In this document: positions 34,601-46,207 of the stretch, piece after piece
Position numbering within the stretch: position 1 is the stretch's first letter
Layout: each line of letters starts with the position of its first letter
NCBI GenBank assembly: GCA_030272155.1
Contig: CP126193.1
Location: 2,666,001-2,730,000 of the forward strand
Length of the DNA: 64,000 nt
Reading direction: 5' to 3'
Origin: Tetradesmus obliquus
Lineage: Eukaryota > Chlorophyta > Chlorophyceae > Sphaeropleales > Scenedesmaceae
Translations under genes and position numbers: made by a program
Notes under the pieces: model-generated
The model's input: the letters and a program-made list of their open reading frames with translations, nothing else
What the model was told of the DNA's origin: nothing
The model's database searches: none

Positions 34601-37148
34601 AAAGAAGCGGCAGCGCAGCGAGACGCCTGCAACAGCAACCGCAGCAGCAGCAGCAGCAGCAGCAGCGCAGGACAAGCCGCCTGCTGGGAAAAAGGTGAGG
34701 TATACGCATGATGCTGCAAGTTTGTGGTGTGCATAAGCTGGCAGAGCTGTACTGTCTCATTGTAGTTTGTGGATTGCAGCTATGTGGAAAGACCGCAGCT
34801 GCCACGACTGCGCTGCTGACGGCTGCCGTGTTTCTGGTTTCTGTGATTCCCTGCAGGCCAAATCCGCAGCTGCACCCCCGGCGCAAGCAGGAGCAGCGGC
34901 GGCAGCAGACACGCAGCAACAACCTGCAGCAGGCAATGCAGGCGCGGCTGGTCCAGCTCCTGCAGCAGCAGCACCAACAGCAGCAGCAGCACCTGGTACA
35001 AGTGCTGGCGGCACAGCAGCTAAGGCTATGGCGGGCATCAAAGGTGCGCTGCTGCTGGGGAGCACATGACACTGGCTCACTGATGCTTCAACAGTGGCTG
35101 CTGTCATGCCGCGGCTTTAGCAAGCACAATTGTGCTCTTCCTGTACCAGCAGGATTTGTAGCATGATTCCAAGGACAACGCGCTTGCTAGCTTCAGCAGA
35201 TCTTGCCTAGGGTGCGTGTGCGCTACTCAGTGGCTGCTTGACCGCGCATTCTTTGTTGTTCATTGACTGCAGCTGCTCTTGCTGCCAAGAAGAAGCCGCC
35301 TGCGACTGACAGCAAAGCTGCAGCAGCAGCAGCAGCAGCAGCAGTGGAGGCAGCAGCAGCAGCACCTGACAGCAGCAAGCCCAAGGAGCAGCAGCAGCCT
35401 GCCGCCAGGAAGGAGGCTCAGCAGCAGCAGCAGCAGCAGCAGCAGCCTGCTGATCAGCAAGCAGCAGTGTCTGGACCTGCAGCAGCAGAGCCTGCCGTGG
35501 ATGCTGCGGAAGCAGCAGCAGCAGCGGCAGCTGGCGGGGCTGTGGCGGCTGCTGCTGCTGCTGGGCTGCCGTCAGCAGTGGTGGCTGCAGTGGAGGCCCT
35601 GCAGAAAGAAGTTGCAGAGGTGCGGCAGCAGCACTGTGCGCATGACGTTCCGTGGAACAATAGCAACCAATACGTCGCATCTGCACTGTTGTGTGTGCAT
35701 CCAACTGTGTCTCACTCCAGGCCGGATTTTAAACACTGTGGCTGTCCTCTGCCGCTGCCTCGGCTGCTGTTGTTTCACTTCCGCAGCACAAGCCGCCACC
35801 ACCCGGGGGCCCCGGCAAGAGTGCCGGCATGAGTAAGGCGGTGCGCCATGCACTGGACAGCCTGGGGCTCACTTTTGCACGGCTGCCAGCACAGGTGCGT
35901 GGACTTGCGGTGTGCTGCTGTAGAGTGATGGTGTTGCTGGCACACACGCCTTTGACAGCCTGGGGCTCACTTTTGCGCGGCTGCCAGCACAGGTGCGCCA
36001 CGCTGGCGCTGGTGGCCATGTGTCAACATGGAGTTTCCAGAGTTTTTTAGCATGTAAAGCAATATGTGTGTTGCTGCAGTGGGGTCTTGTGGGGCACGGA
36101 TATCAGCCACTGCCCTACTCTTTGCACCCATCTGCCGCACATGCATGCAGAAAGTAACTGATACACCAACTTGTTCAGTACTACATTTTAATTCAGCACA
36201 ATGAATCTGCTGGGCACGCATGCATACGTGCATGCACGGAGTCCAGCCACTTCTATGCTCCCCGCCACCCGTCATTTACAACTGTACACGTTGCCAACGC
36301 CGCAGGTGCGCCAGCAGCAAACAGCCGCATTGGTTGCCGCGCTGGGCCCGCTGCTGCTGCCCTACTTCAAGCTGAAGAAGCTGCACGTGCATGCATGCCA
36401 CCCCCTCTCCCTGATCAACAGCAGATGTGCCTGCTGCGCATGCCTGCAACAGACCTGTCCGCTGGGTGCGCATGCATGCCTGCATGCTTGCATGCATGCA
36501 CTCAGTCCGGCCGCTCCCATGCTCACCGCCACCCGTCATGTGCACATTGTCAACGCCGCAGGTGCGCGAGCAGCAAACAGCCGGATTAGTGGCTGCGCTG
36601 GGCCCGCTGCTGCTGCCCTACTTCAAGGAGAAGAAGCTGCGCCGCATTCTGCTGGAGGAGGCAGCCAGCAGGGCGGGAGAGCTGCAAGACACGCGGCAGG
36701 CGCTGTTCGCGCAGCTGGAGGCATGTGCGCCCGGCGGCGGTGCGGCTGGTGCAGGTGTGCAGGCGTGCAGCATGAGGCAGGATTGACCAGTGAATGCATT
36801 GTGCACAGGCCAACTTGTGTTGAATCTAGTATGGTCTTGTACAACAGCGCGTCGTGTTGGTGCACTGCAATGGCCGCTTCCTGTTATGGGTTTGTACCTC
36901 ACACTGCTGCGGGAGGAGGCAGCCAGCAGGGCAGGGGAGTTGCAGGACACACGGCAGGCGCTGTTTGCGCAGCTGAAAGCATGTGCGCCCGGCGGCGGGG
37001 CGGCTGGTGCGGGTGCGCAGTAGCGGTGTTTGCACGGCAACTTGGGAGGAATGGGGCTGCAGGGGTGGTGTTGAGAGTCCTGTTCTACCCGCAACTGAGA
37101 GTGCACTGAGCGTTGCTGCTGCCTGGCCGTGGTCTGGTTGCGCCTTAC

Positions 37149-37182
<34 letters not shown>

Positions 37183-39727
37183 AGGTGGCGCTGGTGACGA
37201 GGACTTCCAGCCGCACATGAGCGCAGCAGCCGAGGAGGCGCTGGCGCAGCTTGAGAGACAGGCCTGGTCTCACGCTGCTGCTGCTGTTGCTGCTGCTGCA
37301 ATCCCTCAGGTGGCGCTGGTGATGAGGACTTCCAGCCGCACATGAGCCCATCAGCCGAGGAGGCGCTGGCGGCAGCCTGGGCGGCGCACCAGGGCTCGCC
37401 CGAGCAGCTCACTCAGCTGGCGGTGGACGTGTGCGCGCAGCTGGGCTGGGCGCATGTGCAGGTGCGGCTGGCGTGCGTAAATAGATGCTGCTCAAGCTGG
37501 TGGAGTGGCGCAGCTGCTGAAGTCAGCTGCCGCGGCAGCTGTGTAGGGTGGCTGCTTGACAGCTGCGCACAGGTTGCTGGCTGAACGCCAACGCAGCAAG
37601 AATCATGCTCAGTGGAATTCGTTGGGATAACCTATGTTATCGCTCACCGTTGATCATGCTGTCGACACTGCAGGCTGTTCTGCCATCGTGTGTGCACATT
37701 GTGTGCGCTGTAGCAAGTACCTATGCCCCAGCCTTGCCTCCAGTGTGCATTCTGTTCCAACCCGCTGTCTGTGTGTGCACCTGTGTGACTTGCTGCAGCC
37801 TGACAAGGCCGTAGCAGAGCTGAAGCAGATCAGCATTGCTTCCAGTTCTGCATGCTGTCCATCTTCCACATTCCCGTGTGTGTATGTGTGCCCCTGTTTC
37901 CTGCTGCAGCCTGACAAGGCCGTAGCAGAGCTAAAGCAGATCAGCATTGCTTCCAGTTCTGCATGCTCTCCACCGTCCACACTCCCGTGTGTGTATGTGT
38001 GCCCTGTTTCATTCTGCAGCCTGACAAGGCCGTAGCAGAGCTGAAGCAGATCATCAAGCAAGCGAAGAAGCGCACAGCCAAGAGCAAGGGCGCAACACCA
38101 GCACCAGCAGCAGCAGCAGCGGCAGCAGGTGCACTCAGCCAGCAGCCGTCTCTGCAGCAGCAGCTCAGCGGAGGCCTCACTTCCTCGCGGCAGTCGCCAG
38201 AGCCCTCAGGCGCTGTTGCTGCTGCTGCTGCTGCTGCTGGTGGTGGTGGTGGTGGGGACACCTCTGGAGGCGGCACCCCTGGTGGCATGACTCCTCAGCG
38301 GCTGGGGCTAGCGCCAATCGTATTGGCAGCGCAGGCGCAGTCGGGTGGTGCCGGCGGCAGCGGCAGCGGCTCTGCGTCTCAAAAGCAGCCAGCCGAGAAG
38401 TTCAGCACGCTGCAAGGTGAGTGCTGCGCTGCTCTGATGCCGCCAGCGCTTGGCGCGCAAAGGGTGATTATGGCTGCTGTGCATCGCCTGGGCGACAGGC
38501 TAGAAGTGTCAGCGACGCGCAGCTGTGTTGCACTGCTGTGTAGCACCCATTAGGCGGCGAGCAGCTGCATGTGCTATACAGCTTGTCAGTCCTCTATCAT
38601 TTGCTCTGTCGTCTGCTGACAGCTTTGGGATGCGTGCTGTCGGTCAGCTGGCGTCCAGCAGCTGTAGTGCAACATCTGCTCCCGCTGCTCTCCTGTGCGG
38701 ACGTGACCTGCCCGCTCACACTGCCCTGCCTGTTTGAATCCTGGTGCACAAACAATGCACATCTGGCTGCAATGCAGCGCCGAGTCCCCGCCTGCAGCGC
38801 TGCCTGGATGCAGCCGTGGCTGCTGGCGCACCTCTGGAGTGGCTGCAGGAGCGCTACCCCAGCCTGCGCGGCAAGCACATGCACCAGGTGCGACGCAGCA
38901 GCAGCAGCAGCAGCGACAGCCTGCAAAGGGCTGCGCTTCATACACTGTGTGCTCTTTTTATGCTGCGCAATTCATGGTTTGTTGAAGGGGCAGCGCATGG
39001 CACGCCATGCCGCACCACCAACAATTACCCACCCACCGTGCTGCACGCGCTCTGACGAGCGCCGATGCGCCTGTCTGAAACCCCTGCCGACCTTGCGTGC
39101 TGCACCAGATGTTCCGCACACTGTGCGTGTCGGGCCCTGCCGGCTGTGCCATCAAGGACATGGTGTCCCGCGCAGCGCAGCATGAGCTCAATGTGGCCTG
39201 GGAGGACAGCAAAGGCGCGCGCGCAGCGCTGAAGCAGTCGCTGGCGGGCAACGCGATGTGCGCGGTTGCGGGCACCACGGGTGAGGCGTGCTGTGAGACT
39301 CAGCAACTGTGTGTGTATGTAGCTGGACGTTTTGCACGGCATGCAACACGCGCCAAGATACGTTGCTGTATAGGTCACTCAGCTTGTGCAACACGCAATT
39401 ATGTACACCACATCACAAGTCACCTTATGCCTGCGAACCCACAGCCAGCAGCAATCAGGCCCCACAAACGGCCTGTTAACATCATGACTGGCACCTGCAA
39501 GCATGTACTGCAAAAGTAACCGCTAGCGCCCCGTCCTGCCTGGTGACTGTTGTTCACACTGCTGCTGCTGCTACCTGCCTGTCTGGCCATGTGCAGAGGC
39601 GGACCCCAAGGCGTATGCGCTGCTGTGCTTCCCTGGCGTGCGCAAGCAGCCCGCAAAGCAGCCCAAGGCGGCACCTGATGCAGCAGCAGCAGCAGCTGGC
39701 GGGGCTGGTCAGGCTGCAGCAGAGTGA
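31691..39727 (+). CDS. Ubinuclein / HPC2-like subunit of the HIRA histone-chaperone complex
   Basis: Ubinuclein partners HIRA in replication-independent H3.3 deposition in the nucleus. Sixteen exons close in frame (958 aa): 31691-31933, 32011-32100, 32281-32349, 32613-32690, 33071-33167, 33402-33571, 34362-34694, 34857-35043, 35273-35619, 35787-35894, 36562-36754, 37310-37461, 38020-38416, 38778-38887, 39109-39280, 39597-39727. The key evidence is the HUN/Hpc2-related motif at about residues 215-245 (RFERYDDDFIDDSELEM, then TKTKFSGFYVTQGNVETIEEP). It is preceded by two acidic Asp/Glu exons and followed by Lys/Arg-, Gln- and Ala-rich disorder. Later exons (QQTAGLVAALGPLLLPYF, PDKAVAELKQIIKQ, FRTLCVSGPAGCAIKDMVSRA) resemble the helical C-terminal region of ubinucleins. 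Introns contain at least seven partial exon copies, so exons 11-13 were chosen as the copies that splice in phase. Confidence 0.75.
33631..33818 (+). repeat. Two partial copies of ubinuclein exon 6, 3' edge
   Basis: Degenerate copies end at 33663 (CTACGTGACCCAG|GTGCAG) and at 33818 (from GATTTCATGTATGACAGCC to TACGTGATGCAG|GTGCGG). The real exon edge is at 33571. The second copy spans about 85 nt but has lost bases and the frame. Confidence 0.8.
33955..34265 (+). repeat. GGGC/GTGC-rich simple-repeat intron
   Basis: Intron 6 of the ubinuclein-like gene contains tracts such as GGCGGGCGGGCGGGCGGGCG mixed with GTGCGTGTGCG. The G tracts lie on the coding strand and could form G-quadruplexes in the pre-mRNA. 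Confidence 0.85.
35951..35992 (+). repeat. Partial copy of ubinuclein exon 10, 3' edge with donor
   Basis: A 42-nt copy of the end of exon 10 (SLGLTFARLPAQ) plus its CAG|GTGCG donor, 98 bp downstream of the real edge at 35894, nearly identical. Confidence 0.9.
36214..36390 (+). repeat. Upstream partial copy of ubinuclein exon 11 with intron and acceptor
   Basis: Matches about 36466-36640 at an offset of 256 bp. It includes intron sequence (CCGCCACCCGTCAT), the CGCCGCAG acceptor at 36305 and exon sequence QQTAALVAALGPLLLPYFK, then diverges after LKKL. Confidence 0.88.
36911..37022 (+). repeat. Downstream partial copy of ubinuclein exon 11, 3' part
   Basis: Copy of about 36653-36760 at an offset of 258 bp, covering EEAASRAGELQDTRQALFAQL to GGGAAGA and a GTGCGC donor-like end. 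Several point differences. Confidence 0.9.
37185..37259 (+). repeat. Upstream partial copy of ubinuclein exon 12 with acceptor
   Basis: Starts after TGCTCAG at 37184 and repeats GGAGDEDFQPHMS as in the real exon beginning at 37310; offset 125 bp. Confidence 0.9.
37799..38019 (+). repeat. Two tandem copies of ubinuclein exon 13 5' edge plus intron
   Basis: A unit of about 110 bp (CTGCAG acceptor, PDKAVAELKQI, then intron with TGTGTATGTGTG) occurs at 37799 and 37910 before the real exon at 38020. Confidence 0.92.
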
Positions 39728-40853
39728 CACAGATTTGTGTGCACTTTAAAGTGCAGCATGGTTTGGAGCGTAGCACAAGACACCACTCACCCCGCGCGCC
39801 ATTGAGCAGAAAGATAGGCGGGGCAGGCTGCAGCAGAATAGTCGTGACATACAGAAACCATGTGGCGAGACCGCAGAGGTATGTATGCTCAGCTCTGTAC
39901 GCAGCTGTGTGGTGGTTGTGGTTGGGCTGCAGCGTTCGTGATTTGACCCCCGCCGCATTTTTTGTGTGCGGCGTTGCAATTGCTGTTGTGGTTGCGTCTG
40001 CGGCAGGCTTGGCTATTACACACGGTTGTGTCGTGGGCCAGCATGCTTTGTGGTGCACATTGGTTAAGAATTGTAGCATCACTGGTCAGTGCTGTCACAC
40101 CCTTCAACCAGTGTTTCCATGCTTCCATGCTCTTGTCAGTTGATTCGTGGTGATGTGGCCTACAAGAGGTACACAGAAGGCGATATCACAATGATCATCA
40201 TGATGATCCTGTTCAGGCACAGCAGCAGTATCACAAACAAGACGGGCATTACAATCCTGCAGCCTCGGCAGCAACTGCAACCTTGTGCTGCTTTACATTG
40301 CTTAAGACAAACACACACTCAGGAGATGAAGGCATCGTCAAACATTGCAGCCGTGGGAAGGTGCGCACAATCAGCATGTGCTAGCATGCATGTAGAGGAC
40401 TACTCACGTCTGGTAGTGAAATCTTGCAACGTGTTGACAAAGCAACAGCAGCAGTCATGACTGATCAGCACGGTATATGATGTTACTGTCAAATTACCAG
40501 CTACTAAGCCACAGCAACAACGCCTTCGGCCACCACCACTGTCTATTCTACAACAAAGATGCATATGCGTTGTGTACAACTGTCATCGAGTGTGGCTGAT
40601 GTCTGTTGGTGTGTCAGTGTGTGGCGCTCGTCCAAGGTTGTTGACAGCTGTCAGGTTTGACAACATGATGGTACATGCCAAGCATGTGTGGTACATGCCA
40701 AGCCTGCGCTCTGCTGAGGTCCACGTCACAGCACTGCCAGCCCTAGGCAGTACAGCATCTCTTGATGGCTCAAGTGTTTAACTGCAGTTGGCTACAATGA
40801 AAACAGCTGCTGGTCCCATGCCAAAACATTCAAGAGTGTTGCTGCCCGCCCTC
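39728..40853. other. Convergent intergenic region
   Basis: Between the ubinuclein-like stop (+) and the UBL-E2 stop (-). No gene or RNA recognised; presumably 3' UTRs. Confidence 0.5.
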
Positions 40854-42083
40854 TCAGCCCATCGCATGCTGCCTCGTCATGGCAGCTGCCTTTTCACGGT
40901 ACGCATCTCGTTCATACTCATATTGCTTGGCACACTCCTTGTTCAGCGGGCTGCTGGCATTGGGTGTGGCCAGCAGCATCTGCAGCGCTGCCAGCACACA
41001 CTCCACCGCGCATGCACCTGTGTCATCGCGCTCCTGGCTGATGCAGATGCCACCTTCGCTGCCAACATTTGGGTGCCAGATGGGTGTCAGGAAGCGGCCT
41101 GTCGGCATGCTGCGTGGGAAGTCTGAGGGGAACTTCAGCTCCACGTCAAACCAGCCGCCGCTGTATGGCGTGCCTGCTGGGCCGCTCAGCTGCAGGCAGC
41201 AGGCAGGGACAGCAAGCAGGGGCAGCAGGCAGTGTGAGTCGACAGTGTCCTGAGGGCAGTGCGCCACCGAGGATATTGTCATTGTGTCTGACTCGGACAT
41301 TGCATACGTGGTAGTGGCTACAGCAGGCCCACTAGGCAGTGCTACTCCGTACAAAGTGGAATGCAAGGTTGTAGATTGTCAGCATCCAACGCCCTCATGA
41401 GGTGGCCATAGGATGCAAGTCAACCGCATCAGGCGTTACTTGATGCATGCACGCGGCTTGCAGCTCTGCATGCTGTGCCATACCTTCACGTACCACGTCA
41501 GCACATCATCCTCACTGGGCCCCACTGAGATGCCAGGGATGGGATGGCTCATCTGGCGCCGCATCTGCCTGGCCAGCTCAGCAGCGGGGCTGCCGCCCTG
41601 CATGCGCTTCACAACATGCAGCACGTTGACGGCGTCTTTGGGACGGAAGGCGCTGTCGTTCCTGCAGTCGATCTCCCTGCCAGCGTACGCGATGCGCAGC
41701 TGCAGTCGCAGGGGGTTGGGAGACGAGGCAGCAGCAGCACCAGCAGTAGCAGTGCCAGATTCTTCACTAGGTGCGCGCAGAGTACATGTGCACGGATACT
41801 ACCAGTGCAGATCGAAGTTCGTCAGCTGCAAGACAGATGGCATGTTTTGTGCAGCTTTTGGATGCACAGCCTGTTGGGGCTGCGTCTGCTGTACTGTGGT
41901 ATACCACATATATCTGCAACCGTTGCACTGCACCGCATGCCTGCTAGTCAATAACCTCACCGCACCTGCAGGGCTGTTGATGGCATGTGCCACAGTCTGC
42001 AGCAGGCTGCGGTTGGTTGTGTCATCGTCAACATTAATCAGAGACTTCTGTCCCTCGATGGTCATGACGGTCAGCTGCTTCAT
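40854..42083 (-). CDS. Ubiquitin-like domain fused to ubiquitin-conjugating enzyme E2
   Basis: Three exons join in frame (243 aa): 41966-42083, 41484-41761, 40854-41189. Residues 1-96 form a ubiquitin-like fold: MKQLTVMTIEGQKSLINV at the start, LRLQLRIAYAGREI in the middle (compare the LIFAGKQL strand of ubiquitin) and VNVLHVVKRMQGG at the end, with the di-glycine at residues 95-96. An Ala-rich insertion sits in the first loop. From residue 97 the E2 core follows directly: helix 1 (AAELARQMRRQM), PGISVGPSEDDVLTWYV, PYSGGWFDVELKFPSDFP, the HPN motif in TPIWHPNV, catalytic Cys181 in GGICIS eight residues after the HPN asparagine, and PLNKECAKQYEYERDAYREKA. The start is the first in-frame ATG. 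Predicted to be cytosolic or nuclear. The gene is head to head with a Ulp-like protease. Confidence 0.87.
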
Positions 42084-42833
42084 GGTGCTGTGGGTGAACT
42101 TGCCTAGTCGGTCAATGATCGACTTGCAGAGGACGTTCTGGTCGAGGCAGCTGTGCTTGCTGCCAGCAAGAGCATGCAAACACTAAGCTTCAGAACGGAT
42201 TGACCCGTGACCTGCTGCACCCGCTGCCGCCGAGATGAGGCACGGTTAAGGTGCCATGAACTCCTATCTGTGCCGCGCGTTCCGAGGTCCAACGATATGC
42301 ACCCGCGCATCTACAAGCTTGGTGTGGCTGCGGCTGGTTTCGCTGAAAGTGGTTAGCTACATGTAAATATTTCGAAATTTTCCAGAGCCAATGTGGCCTT
42401 GGCCTGTATTGTATCGCAAGCTCGAGCTTTGCCTTGCTGTGCTCAAGTTCCTGGCATTGACCTCCCCGCGTGTAATACTGCTGCTCAGACGTATTTTAAT
42501 GCGTGCGAAAGTCTTCTGGAGCAGCATGAAGCGGTTGCTGTGCGGTGAGCGCCGTCTTGTGCCCTGTCCGAGGTGCTGTGCGGGAAAAAAGTCGCTAGAA
42601 CGTGCGGCAAATCGCACGGCCAGCTTGCAAGACCCGATACCAATCAATGTGCCGGTGATCACAGAGTTGTTCGTGGCTGACAACTGCACTGTGCCCTGGC
42701 ACCCAGCGTAACCGTCATGCTGCGAAAGCACCAGGCCTGGTGCTACCCTAGGGCAGCATGCCACCACTGCTGCGCAATAGTACTGCTGCGGCTTACCGTG
42801 TTCACGTCCGTTGGCCACCGACCTGATTTGCAG
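42084..42833. promoter_or_regulatory. Divergent promoter region of UBL-E2 and Ulp-like protease genes
   Basis: The UBL-E2 gene reads left from 42083 and the protease reads right. A frame opening at the ATG at 42391 (about 106 codons, containing CPRCC) may be the protease 5' exon, but I could not join it in phase to the exon at 42834. The promoter core is most likely within 42,084-42,390. Confidence 0.4.
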
Positions 42834-44644
42834 GAGGTACATCAGCAGACGCAGTCAGCACCTCGACGGAGTACCCGCCTTTGCTTGAAAGCGCTACTGT
42901 ATCCTCGCCCACCTCAACGCCAGCAGACGACACAGCCCTGACCTTTCCAGACACCACAGCAGCAGAAGAACCTGCGGACTTTCCAAGAAAGGGTGCACAC
43001 AGCAACAGCAAAACAAGGCTGTCGTGGCATGGCCCTACTGCTGCTGCTGCCGCTGCTGTTGCAGCCTCAGACCACGTCAGCATACGCATTACAGACCAGC
43101 CCTACAAACCAGGCAGCAGCGCGCTGCGCGCCAAATGCCCACCCACTACAGAACAGCAGAAGCAGCAGCAGCAGCAGCAGCAGTGGGGAGGTACTTTGGG
43201 TGTCGCCTCCTTGGGCTGCAGCACACCAGCTGCCTACATGGTGCAGCAAAGATGTTCATCCAGCATCATGCCTAAGACAGGCTGCGTAGAGCGCATCAGG
43301 CTGGAGCTTGCAGCACGGAGAGCTGCAGAGGCAGCTGCAGCAACAGCAACAGCCGCCGCTGCTGCCGCTGCAGTGGAAACAGCAGCATTAGCAGAGCAGC
43401 TAGTGCAGCCGCAGCCCCCCATGCAGCTTGGTGGTCAGCTGGGGCTGTGCAGCACAGTGCCGTCCTCGCAGCTACCACAAGACAACCCAGGAGACGCTGC
43501 TTCCCTGACAGAGACAGCTGCAACCGGTCAAAGCCCTGCTGATGATGCTGGCGTATTAGCAGCAGCCCCACTAGAGGAAGCCCGCAGCATGCAGGCAGTG
43601 GGTTTGTTGGCAGCAGCGCCTGCACTGGCTGCGTGGCCAGCTGGGCCGGCTGTGACAGATGACTTGGCTGCTGCTGCTGATGGTCATGCTGACAGGTGCT
43701 TGGCAGGCACGCCAACAGTGCATGCAGCCACTGGTGTACTGACAGCAGAACTTATCATCACCGAAGAAGACGATAATCTGCAGCCGGTCACAGCAACAGC
43801 AACAGCAGCGGCGGTAGCAGTGAGGCCAGAGGTAGCATCAGCACCAGAAGACCCAGCAGCACGAGCCCAGGATCCAGCTGAACAGCAGCTAGCGACAGCA
43901 GCAGCGGCGAATCAGCCAGCCTCTTTCCCACATGGGACAGCAGCAGAGGCAGCCATCACAGTAGACGCAGCAGCAGCTGCAGCGTGTGGGGTGGCTGGGC
44001 TGGCAGACACAACAGCAGCAGGGCCAGCGGAGGCAGCAGTGGCAGGGGAGGCAGCAGCGGCAGCAGCAGAGAGCCATCAGCATGATGCAATGCTGCTGCT
44101 GCCCCAGATGTCTGGCGCCCACCATTTGGTGTGGCAGCCTGCGGCCGCTGTCGCGCCAGCTGTCAGGTGTGCGGTGATCACCACAAGTCTGTTATATACC
44201 TTGCAGAGCACATGTCACACGGTTGTCCGCCACTTGTTGTTGGCCTGCCGTATGCGCTGTCACAGCGAAGAAGTTATTTAGTGCTTCATTCACATGTCCA
44301 GCACTGTGCAGTCCTGCCTAGCACCATGCCTTAACTGAATATCCACAAAAGAAAGCAATTTGTTGCATATGAGTGGGCCGCTTCCTTGCTTCCAGCATGT
44401 GTGCTGGCGATTGTACAACTTGTTTGACACGTGCCTGTGGTTGCCGTCCTGCACTCTTGTCACCGCGTTACCACTGCCACCTGCAGCAGCCACCACCTGG
44501 ATATGGCAGCCCACCTGCAGCACCCATCATCCCGCCTCTTCAACTTCCTCCTAGCTGCTGCATCAGCTGCCGATGCCGCCGGCATCAGCAGCAGTCTGCA
44601 AGCTGTTGCGCAGCCTGGCTGCATTGCTCAAAGCATGAAACAGT

Positions 44645-44678
<34 letters not shown>

Positions 44679-45046
44679 GGTGCCAGATGAAGTAGCTGGC
44701 CTCTACATGTCACCAGCAGTGAAGGAGTACTACTGCTGCAACCCGGCTGTAGCACCTACTGCGTGTTGCTACCTGCAGCACCTGCCAGTTGGTGAATTTG
44801 TAGTGCCTGCAGCACTTGCCATGATGGCAGCGGCAGCAGCAGGCGGTGCTGCAGTTGGCGTGGATCTCAGTGAGAAGGGCAGTTGGCAGCAGCTGGAGGC
44901 AGCAGTAAGCTGTGGCGCTACACCTGTTGCAGCAACGGCAGCAGGCGCTGAGCAGGCTTTGACCTGTGCGCTGCTGCTGCAGCAGTCACACAGGACGCGA
45001 GAGGTGGCAGTGCTGCTGCCTGTCGGCTGGCCTGCAGCTTCGAATG

Positions 45047-45092
<46 letters not shown>

Positions 45093-46207
45093 AGATGGTC
45101 AACCGCCTCATGACAGCAGCGGCTGTGCTGTGGCGCGCTGGCTGCTAGTGGACCCTTCTGGTTACTTTGAGCCTGTGTATGATGAGCTGCCGCCAGGTGA
45201 GCCACAGATCATGCCTTGTGATGAGACTGACAGCATCTACACATCATGAGAGTGTGGCACCCGGCGTGGATTTGCATCATTGCTCTAATGGTGCTGTTCT
45301 GTGTGTGATGCGTCAGGCACAGTGTGGCCCCTACGCCATACAGTGCGCCAGAGCTTTGTTGTCAGGCCATGAGCACTTGTTGTCTTCATGTTTGTGGCGC
45401 AGTCGGCTGGTCGCACTCGGTTGGCATCGACGAAACCTCCGGTATATCAAGTGTATTTTATTCGCATGCAGCCCGACGAGCATTGCCTGAGCTGAATATG
45501 TCAACTGCGCCCTCCCTGCCGCTGCTACGCTTTATGCCACAGGCAATGCATTCTACTTCAACCCAGCTGCAGCGCTGCCAAGCAACCACAGGCAACCTGT
45601 GCCGGGCACCAGCAGCTGCCACATCATTGCTGCTCTGCTGGGCTTTTGCAGTGGCTGGCTGGACTTCTCAAGCCTTGCAGCGCTGCACAGCAGCTATGCT
45701 GCTGCTTTCGGCAGGCTCGATGATGTTGACTATGCAGTTTCATGCTTGGCAACGCTGCTGCTGGAAGGGCAGGTGTCCATTGGACTCCTTGGAATGAAGC
45801 TGGACAGCAGCAGCATCAGCAACGGCAGCAGAAGTAGCAGTAGCACTGTGTTTGGCAGGACTTGCAGCTCAGCTGACAGCATCACAGACACCATGCTGGC
45901 CACGTGGCGGCAAGCTGCTGCTGGCAGTGCTGGTGGCAGCAGTGTGTGGAGAAGCAGCGGCAGCAGCGGCAGTGGTGCTGCTACCTGGCTGGACATCAGT
46001 GATCTGGCTGATGTTCTGCATCAATTGGATGGTTACTGTGCGCCGGATGGGCACAGGCTGCTTGTCAGCTGCCACAGCAGGCTGACAGGCACTTGGCTGC
46101 CAGCTTCAGCCGACAATGGCCTACCACTGTATCAGCAGCAGCACATGCGCTGGATGAGCAGCACTTTGGGGGCTGCCGCGTATGCCTCTGCAGCAGGCCC
46201 TGGCTCG

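Follow-up and report, generated by a model that had tools for sequence, protein, structure and literature searches.

Fusions of ubiquitin to ribosomal proteins are classical, and a review describes how uncleavable ones may become fixed ubiquitin-like (UBL) domains (PMC11354881). In ubiquitin-L40, ubiquitin-S27a and FUBI-eS30, an N-terminal ubiquitin fold of 76-77 residues ends in Gly-Gly directly before a complete protein (PMC11354881), an arrangement that the gene described here shares. In our gene, however, the protein that follows is an E2, itself part of the conjugation machinery, the UBL is diverged and cleavage is putative. Some bacterial species have operons of type 6e in which a polyUbl is joined to an inactive E2/RWD-like domain, so that a Ubl and a UBC-fold domain share one protein, as in our gene (PMC1779556). 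By contrast, the account of those operons calls the UBC fold inactive and places it in JAB-E1 operons, whereas our gene encodes a eukaryotic-type E2 with an HPN motif, a catalytic cysteine and exons. Among algae, diverse ubiquitin fusions such as ubiquitin-NiSOD occur in two with complex plastids, a cryptophyte and a chlorarachniophyte, and a targeted search of Chlamydomonas and three other model genomes is reported to have found the two ribosomal fusions and no other clear one (PMC6332867). These resemble our gene as unusual algal ubiquitin fusions; unlike it, they have no E2 partner in the main text of that study, where the words "conjugating" and "UBC" occur 0 times (PMC6332867). In the portions of the literature searched, we found no eukaryotic E2 with its own Gly-Gly-terminated UBL; domain databases and annotated algal proteomes lay outside the scope of that search, and the architecture may exist there unremarked.

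The gene lies on the minus strand at 42083..40854 of a 64,000-nucleotide stretch of Tetradesmus obliquus DNA, which we call the window. It is modeled with three exons, whose 675 bases, including the stop codon, encode 224 residues:

41961..42083, minus strand: exon 1, with the start codon and the first half of the UBL (residues 1-41)
41700..41960, minus strand: intron 1 (GTGAGG...CTGCAG), phase 0, with one in-frame stop; position as in paralogues B and C
41484..41699, minus strand: exon 2, with UBL residues 42-77 (ending KRMQGG) and then, unbroken, E2 helix 1 and the first strand (residues 78-113)
41190..41483, minus strand: intron 2 (GTATGG...CTGCAG), phase 0, with two in-frame stops; position as in paralogues B and C
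40854..41189, minus strand: exon 3, with the remaining E2 core, HPN 152-154, Cys162 and the stop codon; above the cut-off for the Pfam family UQ_con

The start codon stands in the context CACCATGAAG. Both introns are of the GT-AG type and their lengths preserve a single frame; reading through from start to stop encounters three stop codons, all of them intronic. Exon 2 reads as a single open stretch, from the second half of the UBL (LRIAYAGREID...KRMQGG) into the first helix of the E2 (SPAAELARQMRRQM...), and the join between the two domains is therefore independent of splice choice. Its open frame was matched by both the UBL and the E2 family profiles, which include the window sequence, and exon 1 scored 53.3 bits against the family UBL profile, a value that is partly circular for the same reason. 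The predicted protein thus consists of a UBL (residues 1-77, with Gly-Gly at 76-77) and a 147-residue E2 (residues 78-224) with no linker between them. The preliminary description of this DNA had proposed a UBL ending in KRMQGG fused to an E2, and we recovered that fusion on the minus strand, with both domains represented in exon 2; at the level of sequence it is real.

The genome (104.66 Mb in 17 contigs) gave 52 exon-level matches to chlorophyll a/b-binding proteins, which marks it as that of a photosynthetic eukaryote. Searching it with the 224-residue protein returned 18 matches: 3 to the window gene itself, 8 to four further fusion loci, 1 to a UBE2S-like gene and 6 to other E2s. The four fusions, and a fifth locus that encodes a UBL alone, are as follows:

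Fusion A, contig C3, about 6584.1-6585.7k: one apparent frameshift, in the UBL exon
Fusion A2, contig C3, 6587.1-6588.7k: two apparent frameshifts
Fusion B, contig C3, 6624.8-6623.2k: catalytic Cys replaced by Tyr; three exons read, all open
Fusion C, contig C11, 1389.8-1391.8k: apparent frameshift in the E2 exon
Locus E, C3:6620384-6620904, minus strand: UBL alone, ending RFRGG-GAARP-stop

All four fusions have UBL exons followed by E2 exons, in the order of the window gene and on one strand per locus, and in B and C the junctions lie before VRLxYAG and after W-x-V-[KR], the same places as in the window gene. In the aligned pieces, the paralogue E2s are 47 to 58% identical to that of the window gene (A 49, B 47, C 58 and 50). 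HPN is present in all four paralogue E2s and the catalytic cysteine in three of them; the E2 exon of B (6623538-6623196, minus strand) is open and retains HPN with Tyr at the cysteine position, making this copy possibly a natural dead E2 with a UBL. The segment between the domains varies: the window gene has no linker, C has 39 residues (16 of them serines) and B has 79 Ala-rich residues. Of the five fusions, the window copy alone was seen to combine a UBL that is open and ends in Gly-Gly with an E2 that is open and retains HPN and Cys. The apparent frameshifts in A, A2 and C may be sequencing or assembly errors. In seven of eight codon-aligned exon comparisons (the exception being E versus B) the third codon position was the least conserved, a pattern that suggests protein-level constraint on the family in the past and is no proof of constraint on the window copy today.

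Locus E, for which there was no E2 match within the surrounding 9 kb, looks like a modifier precursor, a UBL plus five residues; it shares a stretch of about 41 kb of contig C3 with fusions A, A2 and B. Ahead of their UBL exons, A, B and E have similar open stretches with MLQLRTTA or MLQFQTTA, which by eye have the look of organelle-targeting peptides; none was noticed for the window gene. On contig C11, tandem arrays of the UBL second-half exon (periods of about 115 and 110 bases) lie within 1387.6-1390.9k, upstream of and within C, and the same region also contains repeated UBL first-half stretches, perhaps alternative exons or a poly-UBL.

The paralogues also bear on where the first intron ends. 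The preliminary description had given a 243-residue protein with Gly-Gly at 95-96 and the catalytic cysteine at 181, a numbering that is off by 19 residues, since the Gly-Gly is at 76-77 and the cysteine is Cys162. The sole GT-donor model that we found to place Gly-Gly at 95-96 uses a donor at 41965 and an acceptor just before 41761 (the AG of GTGAAG). By comparison, the donor at 41960 and the acceptor at 41700 yield a UBL of 77 residues, ubiquitin length plus one, and put the first junction before VRLxYAG, at the splice position of B and C. This shorter UBL scored 22.6 bits against a ubiquitin-family profile, versus 13.4 for the longer model, and 36.7 versus 24.9 bits against a paralogue profile built without the window copy. 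Splice sites, paralogue junctions and profile scores together led us to reject the 243-residue model, whose first splice junction is probably wrong.

We then asked how well the N-terminal half compares with ubiquitin. Ubiquitin was its best Pfam family (E 0.0022), at 18.1 bits and under the cut-off of 25.4, a threshold passed by the UBL of paralogue C (26.0) and by another UBL read upstream of C (26.2). Against the ubiquitin-family profile, which was built from four ubiquitin-family proteins, the best of 2000 shuffles of the window UBL scored 7.6 bits, and against the paralogue profile the best of 2000 scored 11.7; in neither case did any of the 2000 reach the score of the real sequence. A profile of four UBLs from the genome (window, C, B and A2) matched monomeric ubiquitin over residues 3-76 with an E of about 2.7e-4, the values near 1e-48 from the same profile being repeats summed over chains of nine ubiquitins. 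When the window UBL was searched against the PDB with phmmer, single ubiquitins were not significant (E about 0.05-0.4) and the best single-domain match was the parkin UBL (E 0.002). Parkin-type enzymes resemble the window protein in carrying an N-terminal UBL on an enzyme of the ubiquitin system; parkin, however, is an E3, whereas the window protein is an E2 with Gly-Gly present. The UBL of parkin is not known to have a processed Gly-Gly. Aligned with ubiquitin, the window UBL is identical at 17 of 75 residues. As a single query against the whole genome (E 1) it found itself alone (both of two matches), and the UBLs of C and E, used as queries, each gave 11 matches from which the window UBL was absent; its putative kinship to them is drawn from profile scores, the shared E2 and the shared junctions. 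A single-sequence AlphaFold prediction of the intron-containing read-through had a mean pLDDT of 33.1, and the strand-strand-helix order of exon 1 was ubiquitin-like, too weak to count. The N-terminal region appears to belong to the ubiquitin family, as a member that is weak when used as a lone query.

The C-terminal half is certainly to be classed as an E2 (UBC). It matches Pfam UQ_con (PF00179) with an E of 3.4e-32 and 111.4 bits against a cut-off of 27, residues 83-216 covering positions 2-138 of 140, and its PDB matches at E 0.001 comprise 288 distinct sequences. The alignment of residues 78-224 with UBE2D2 runs end to end, Ser78 falling on UBE2D2 Met1 and the HPN motif and Cys162 aligning with UBE2D2 N77 and C85. 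Like the class I enzymes UBE2A/RAD6, UBE2N/UBC13 and UBE2D, which are its best PDB profile matches, the window E2 is a minimal core of about 147 residues with HPN and Cys; it differs from them in lacking Trp-Ser-Pro and the RING-docking Phe/Met, in having a helix of its own and in its N-terminal UBL. That helix (V[CR]SVACVL-like, ACAVECVL in the window copy) is specific to this family. In place of UBE2D2 F62, W93 and P95 the window E2 has Arg, a gap and Gly, respectively, and these positions are likewise replaced or missing in A, B and C. RING E3s dock at F62 and the Ser-Pro-Ala loop of E2s, and the alteration of both suggests that normal RING partnership has been lost. These residues are not universal, as UBE2S too is without F62 and P95, and the membership of the window protein among E2s therefore still stands; with Phe62, Trp93 and Pro95 replaced or missing, its activity is not certain. 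The protein had been introduced as an intact E2, a label that holds for the HPN and the cysteine and fails for the Trp-Ser-Pro region and the RING-docking residue.

The E2 cannot be assigned to a named subfamily, because RAD6/UBE2A, UBC13/UBE2N and UBE2D scored nearly equally with the E2 family profile (122 to 113 bits among the best 60 of 270 matches). In a single-sequence search, UBE2S came narrowly first, with 98.6 bits versus 96.6 for UBE2N. We considered membership of the UBE2S/plant UBC22 group and rejected it, since UBE2S was absent from the best 60 of 270 family-profile matches and the genome has a separate UBE2S-like gene (C4:486.9k).

A six-frame Pfam scan of window positions of about 37000-46000 (E 0.01, exons unjoined) identified UQ_con as the sole family, and this, together with the presence of the cysteine and HPN, sets the gene apart from the bacterial type 6e operons. 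An Ala-rich open stretch of 484 residues at 42827..44281 on the plus strand faces away from the gene and has no Pfam match at E 0.01. Elsewhere in the genome, E1-like genes gave at least 20 exon-level matches at about nine places, a lower bound, none of them on C3 or C11; no surplus E1 can be argued from these. Pattern scans for relatives, with tblastn confirmation, gave 1 pattern match in IMG/VR and 14 in a prokaryote genome set (no eukaryotes), and 0 were confirmed in either. A published Scenedesmus wall proteome reports ordinary ubiquitin peptides (PMC11839794); neither a free form of the UBL nor a conjugate is documented.

The tail of the window UBL, Arg73-Met-Gln-Gly76-Gly77, aligns with ubiquitin R72-G76. 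Arg occupies the ubiquitin Arg72 position in the UBLs of the window gene, C, E, B and A2, and three of the seven UBL copies have R-x-x-GG where ubiquitin has it (window, RMQGG-S; C, RMKGG-S; E, RFRGG-G). The remaining four have no Gly-Gly at that place: it reads RTND in B, RVND in A2 and RVNI in A, with a displaced Gly-Gly (RRAAAGG) in the fourth, the UBL upstream of C. The UBLs of the window gene and of C have an overall identity of 32%, yet share four of five tail residues. Ubiquitin L71, L73 and R74 are replaced by K, M and Q in the window UBL, and common deubiquitinases may not cut it as a consequence. Ubiquitin and many fixed UBLs are recognized through a patch centered on Ile44; the six aligned UBLs all have Ala or Ser at this position, indicating that the usual binding patch is not kept.

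What might the fusion be for? The reading that we favor, while giving it somewhat less than an even chance, is that it is a precursor of a UBL modifier and its own E2, to be cut after Gly77. A deubiquitinase-type protease would cleave there, freeing the UBL and the E2; the exposed Arg73-x-x-Gly-Gly tail would be activated by an E1, perhaps of the UBA1 type; and the freed E2, with a normal, unextended N-terminus, would take the activated UBL, or ubiquitin, on Cys162. With the usual RING-docking residues lost, transfer would then require either an unusual E3 or no E3 at all. Modifier and conjugating enzyme would in this way come from one gene in equal amounts, as ubiquitin and ribosomal proteins do from ubiquitin-L40 and ubiquitin-S27a. 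A Gly-Gly at the exact ubiquitin place, beside a kept Arg and in otherwise diverged copies, is what would be expected of a processed and activated UBL, and the UBL-only sister gene E resembles an ordinary modifier precursor; both points favor the precursor. So does the precedent for processing at Gly-Gly in the ubiquitin-ribosomal fusions, as that review presents them (PMC11354881). Counting against it are the absence of Gly-Gly from A, A2 and B and its displacement upstream of C, and also the frameshifts in C, A2 and A and the Tyr for Cys in B, which suggest that the family may be decaying. A more specific version, a private conjugation pathway in which a modifier and a dedicated, RING-independent E2 are made as one polypeptide parted at Gly-Gly, with a second, stand-alone precursor on the same chromosome, we consider possible, though rather unlikely.

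Alternatively, the UBL could remain part of the enzyme, regulating the E2 or serving it as a docking domain; it might mimic the ubiquitin that certain E2s bind at their back face, or bring in a partner. We regard this as possible, on balance doubtful. N-terminal UBLs in enzymes are usually permanent, parkin and several deubiquitinases being examples, and A, A2 and B, whose UBLs lack a terminal Gly-Gly (in B with the long Ala-rich linker before the E2), may well represent such a state. However, linkers of 0, 39 and 79 residues in the window copy, C and B conserve no fixed geometry, the Ile44 position is altered throughout, and RxxGG is kept in the window copy, C and E despite divergence elsewhere. 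Release and permanent attachment had both been offered as fates of the UBL at the outset: for the window copy its length, the place of its Gly-Gly, Arg73 and sister gene E lean toward release, whereas the Gly-Gly-less sisters keep the permanent domain a real prospect. It is distinctly improbable that the window gene, as part of a dying family, is itself decaying or unexpressed and its open frame a remnant. All four other fusions have apparent frameshifts or have lost the catalytic cysteine, and some E2 motif residues are missing from the window copy; against this, the window copy has plausible splice sites and is open across its three exons, and the pattern of codon-position conservation is consistent with past constraint on the family at the protein level, though this is not shown for the window copy today. 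That the UBL and E2 are separate genes wrongly joined by the model we think hardly credible: the joining of exon 1 to exon 2 is by prediction alone, but the end of the UBL and the start of the E2 share one frame within exon 2, the domain order recurs in A, A2, B and C, and the junctions are shared in B and C.

In eukaryotes, it is normally an E1 that passes the modifier to the E2. The striking property of the window gene, as far as its sequence can tell, is that a Gly-Gly is kept directly before an E2, without a linker, in a member of a small family within one genome. If the UBL is released, the gene would provide a new modifier together with its own conjugase, and a direct instance of the two evolving as a unit; if the UBL stays attached, the protein would offer a natural experiment on how an E2 is controlled by a tethered ubiquitin fold. 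The family, with Gly-Gly kept in some copies and absent from others of the same genome, would suit the study of how a modifier turns into a domain, or the reverse, and in T. obliquus one gene may supply both the tag and the tagging enzyme.
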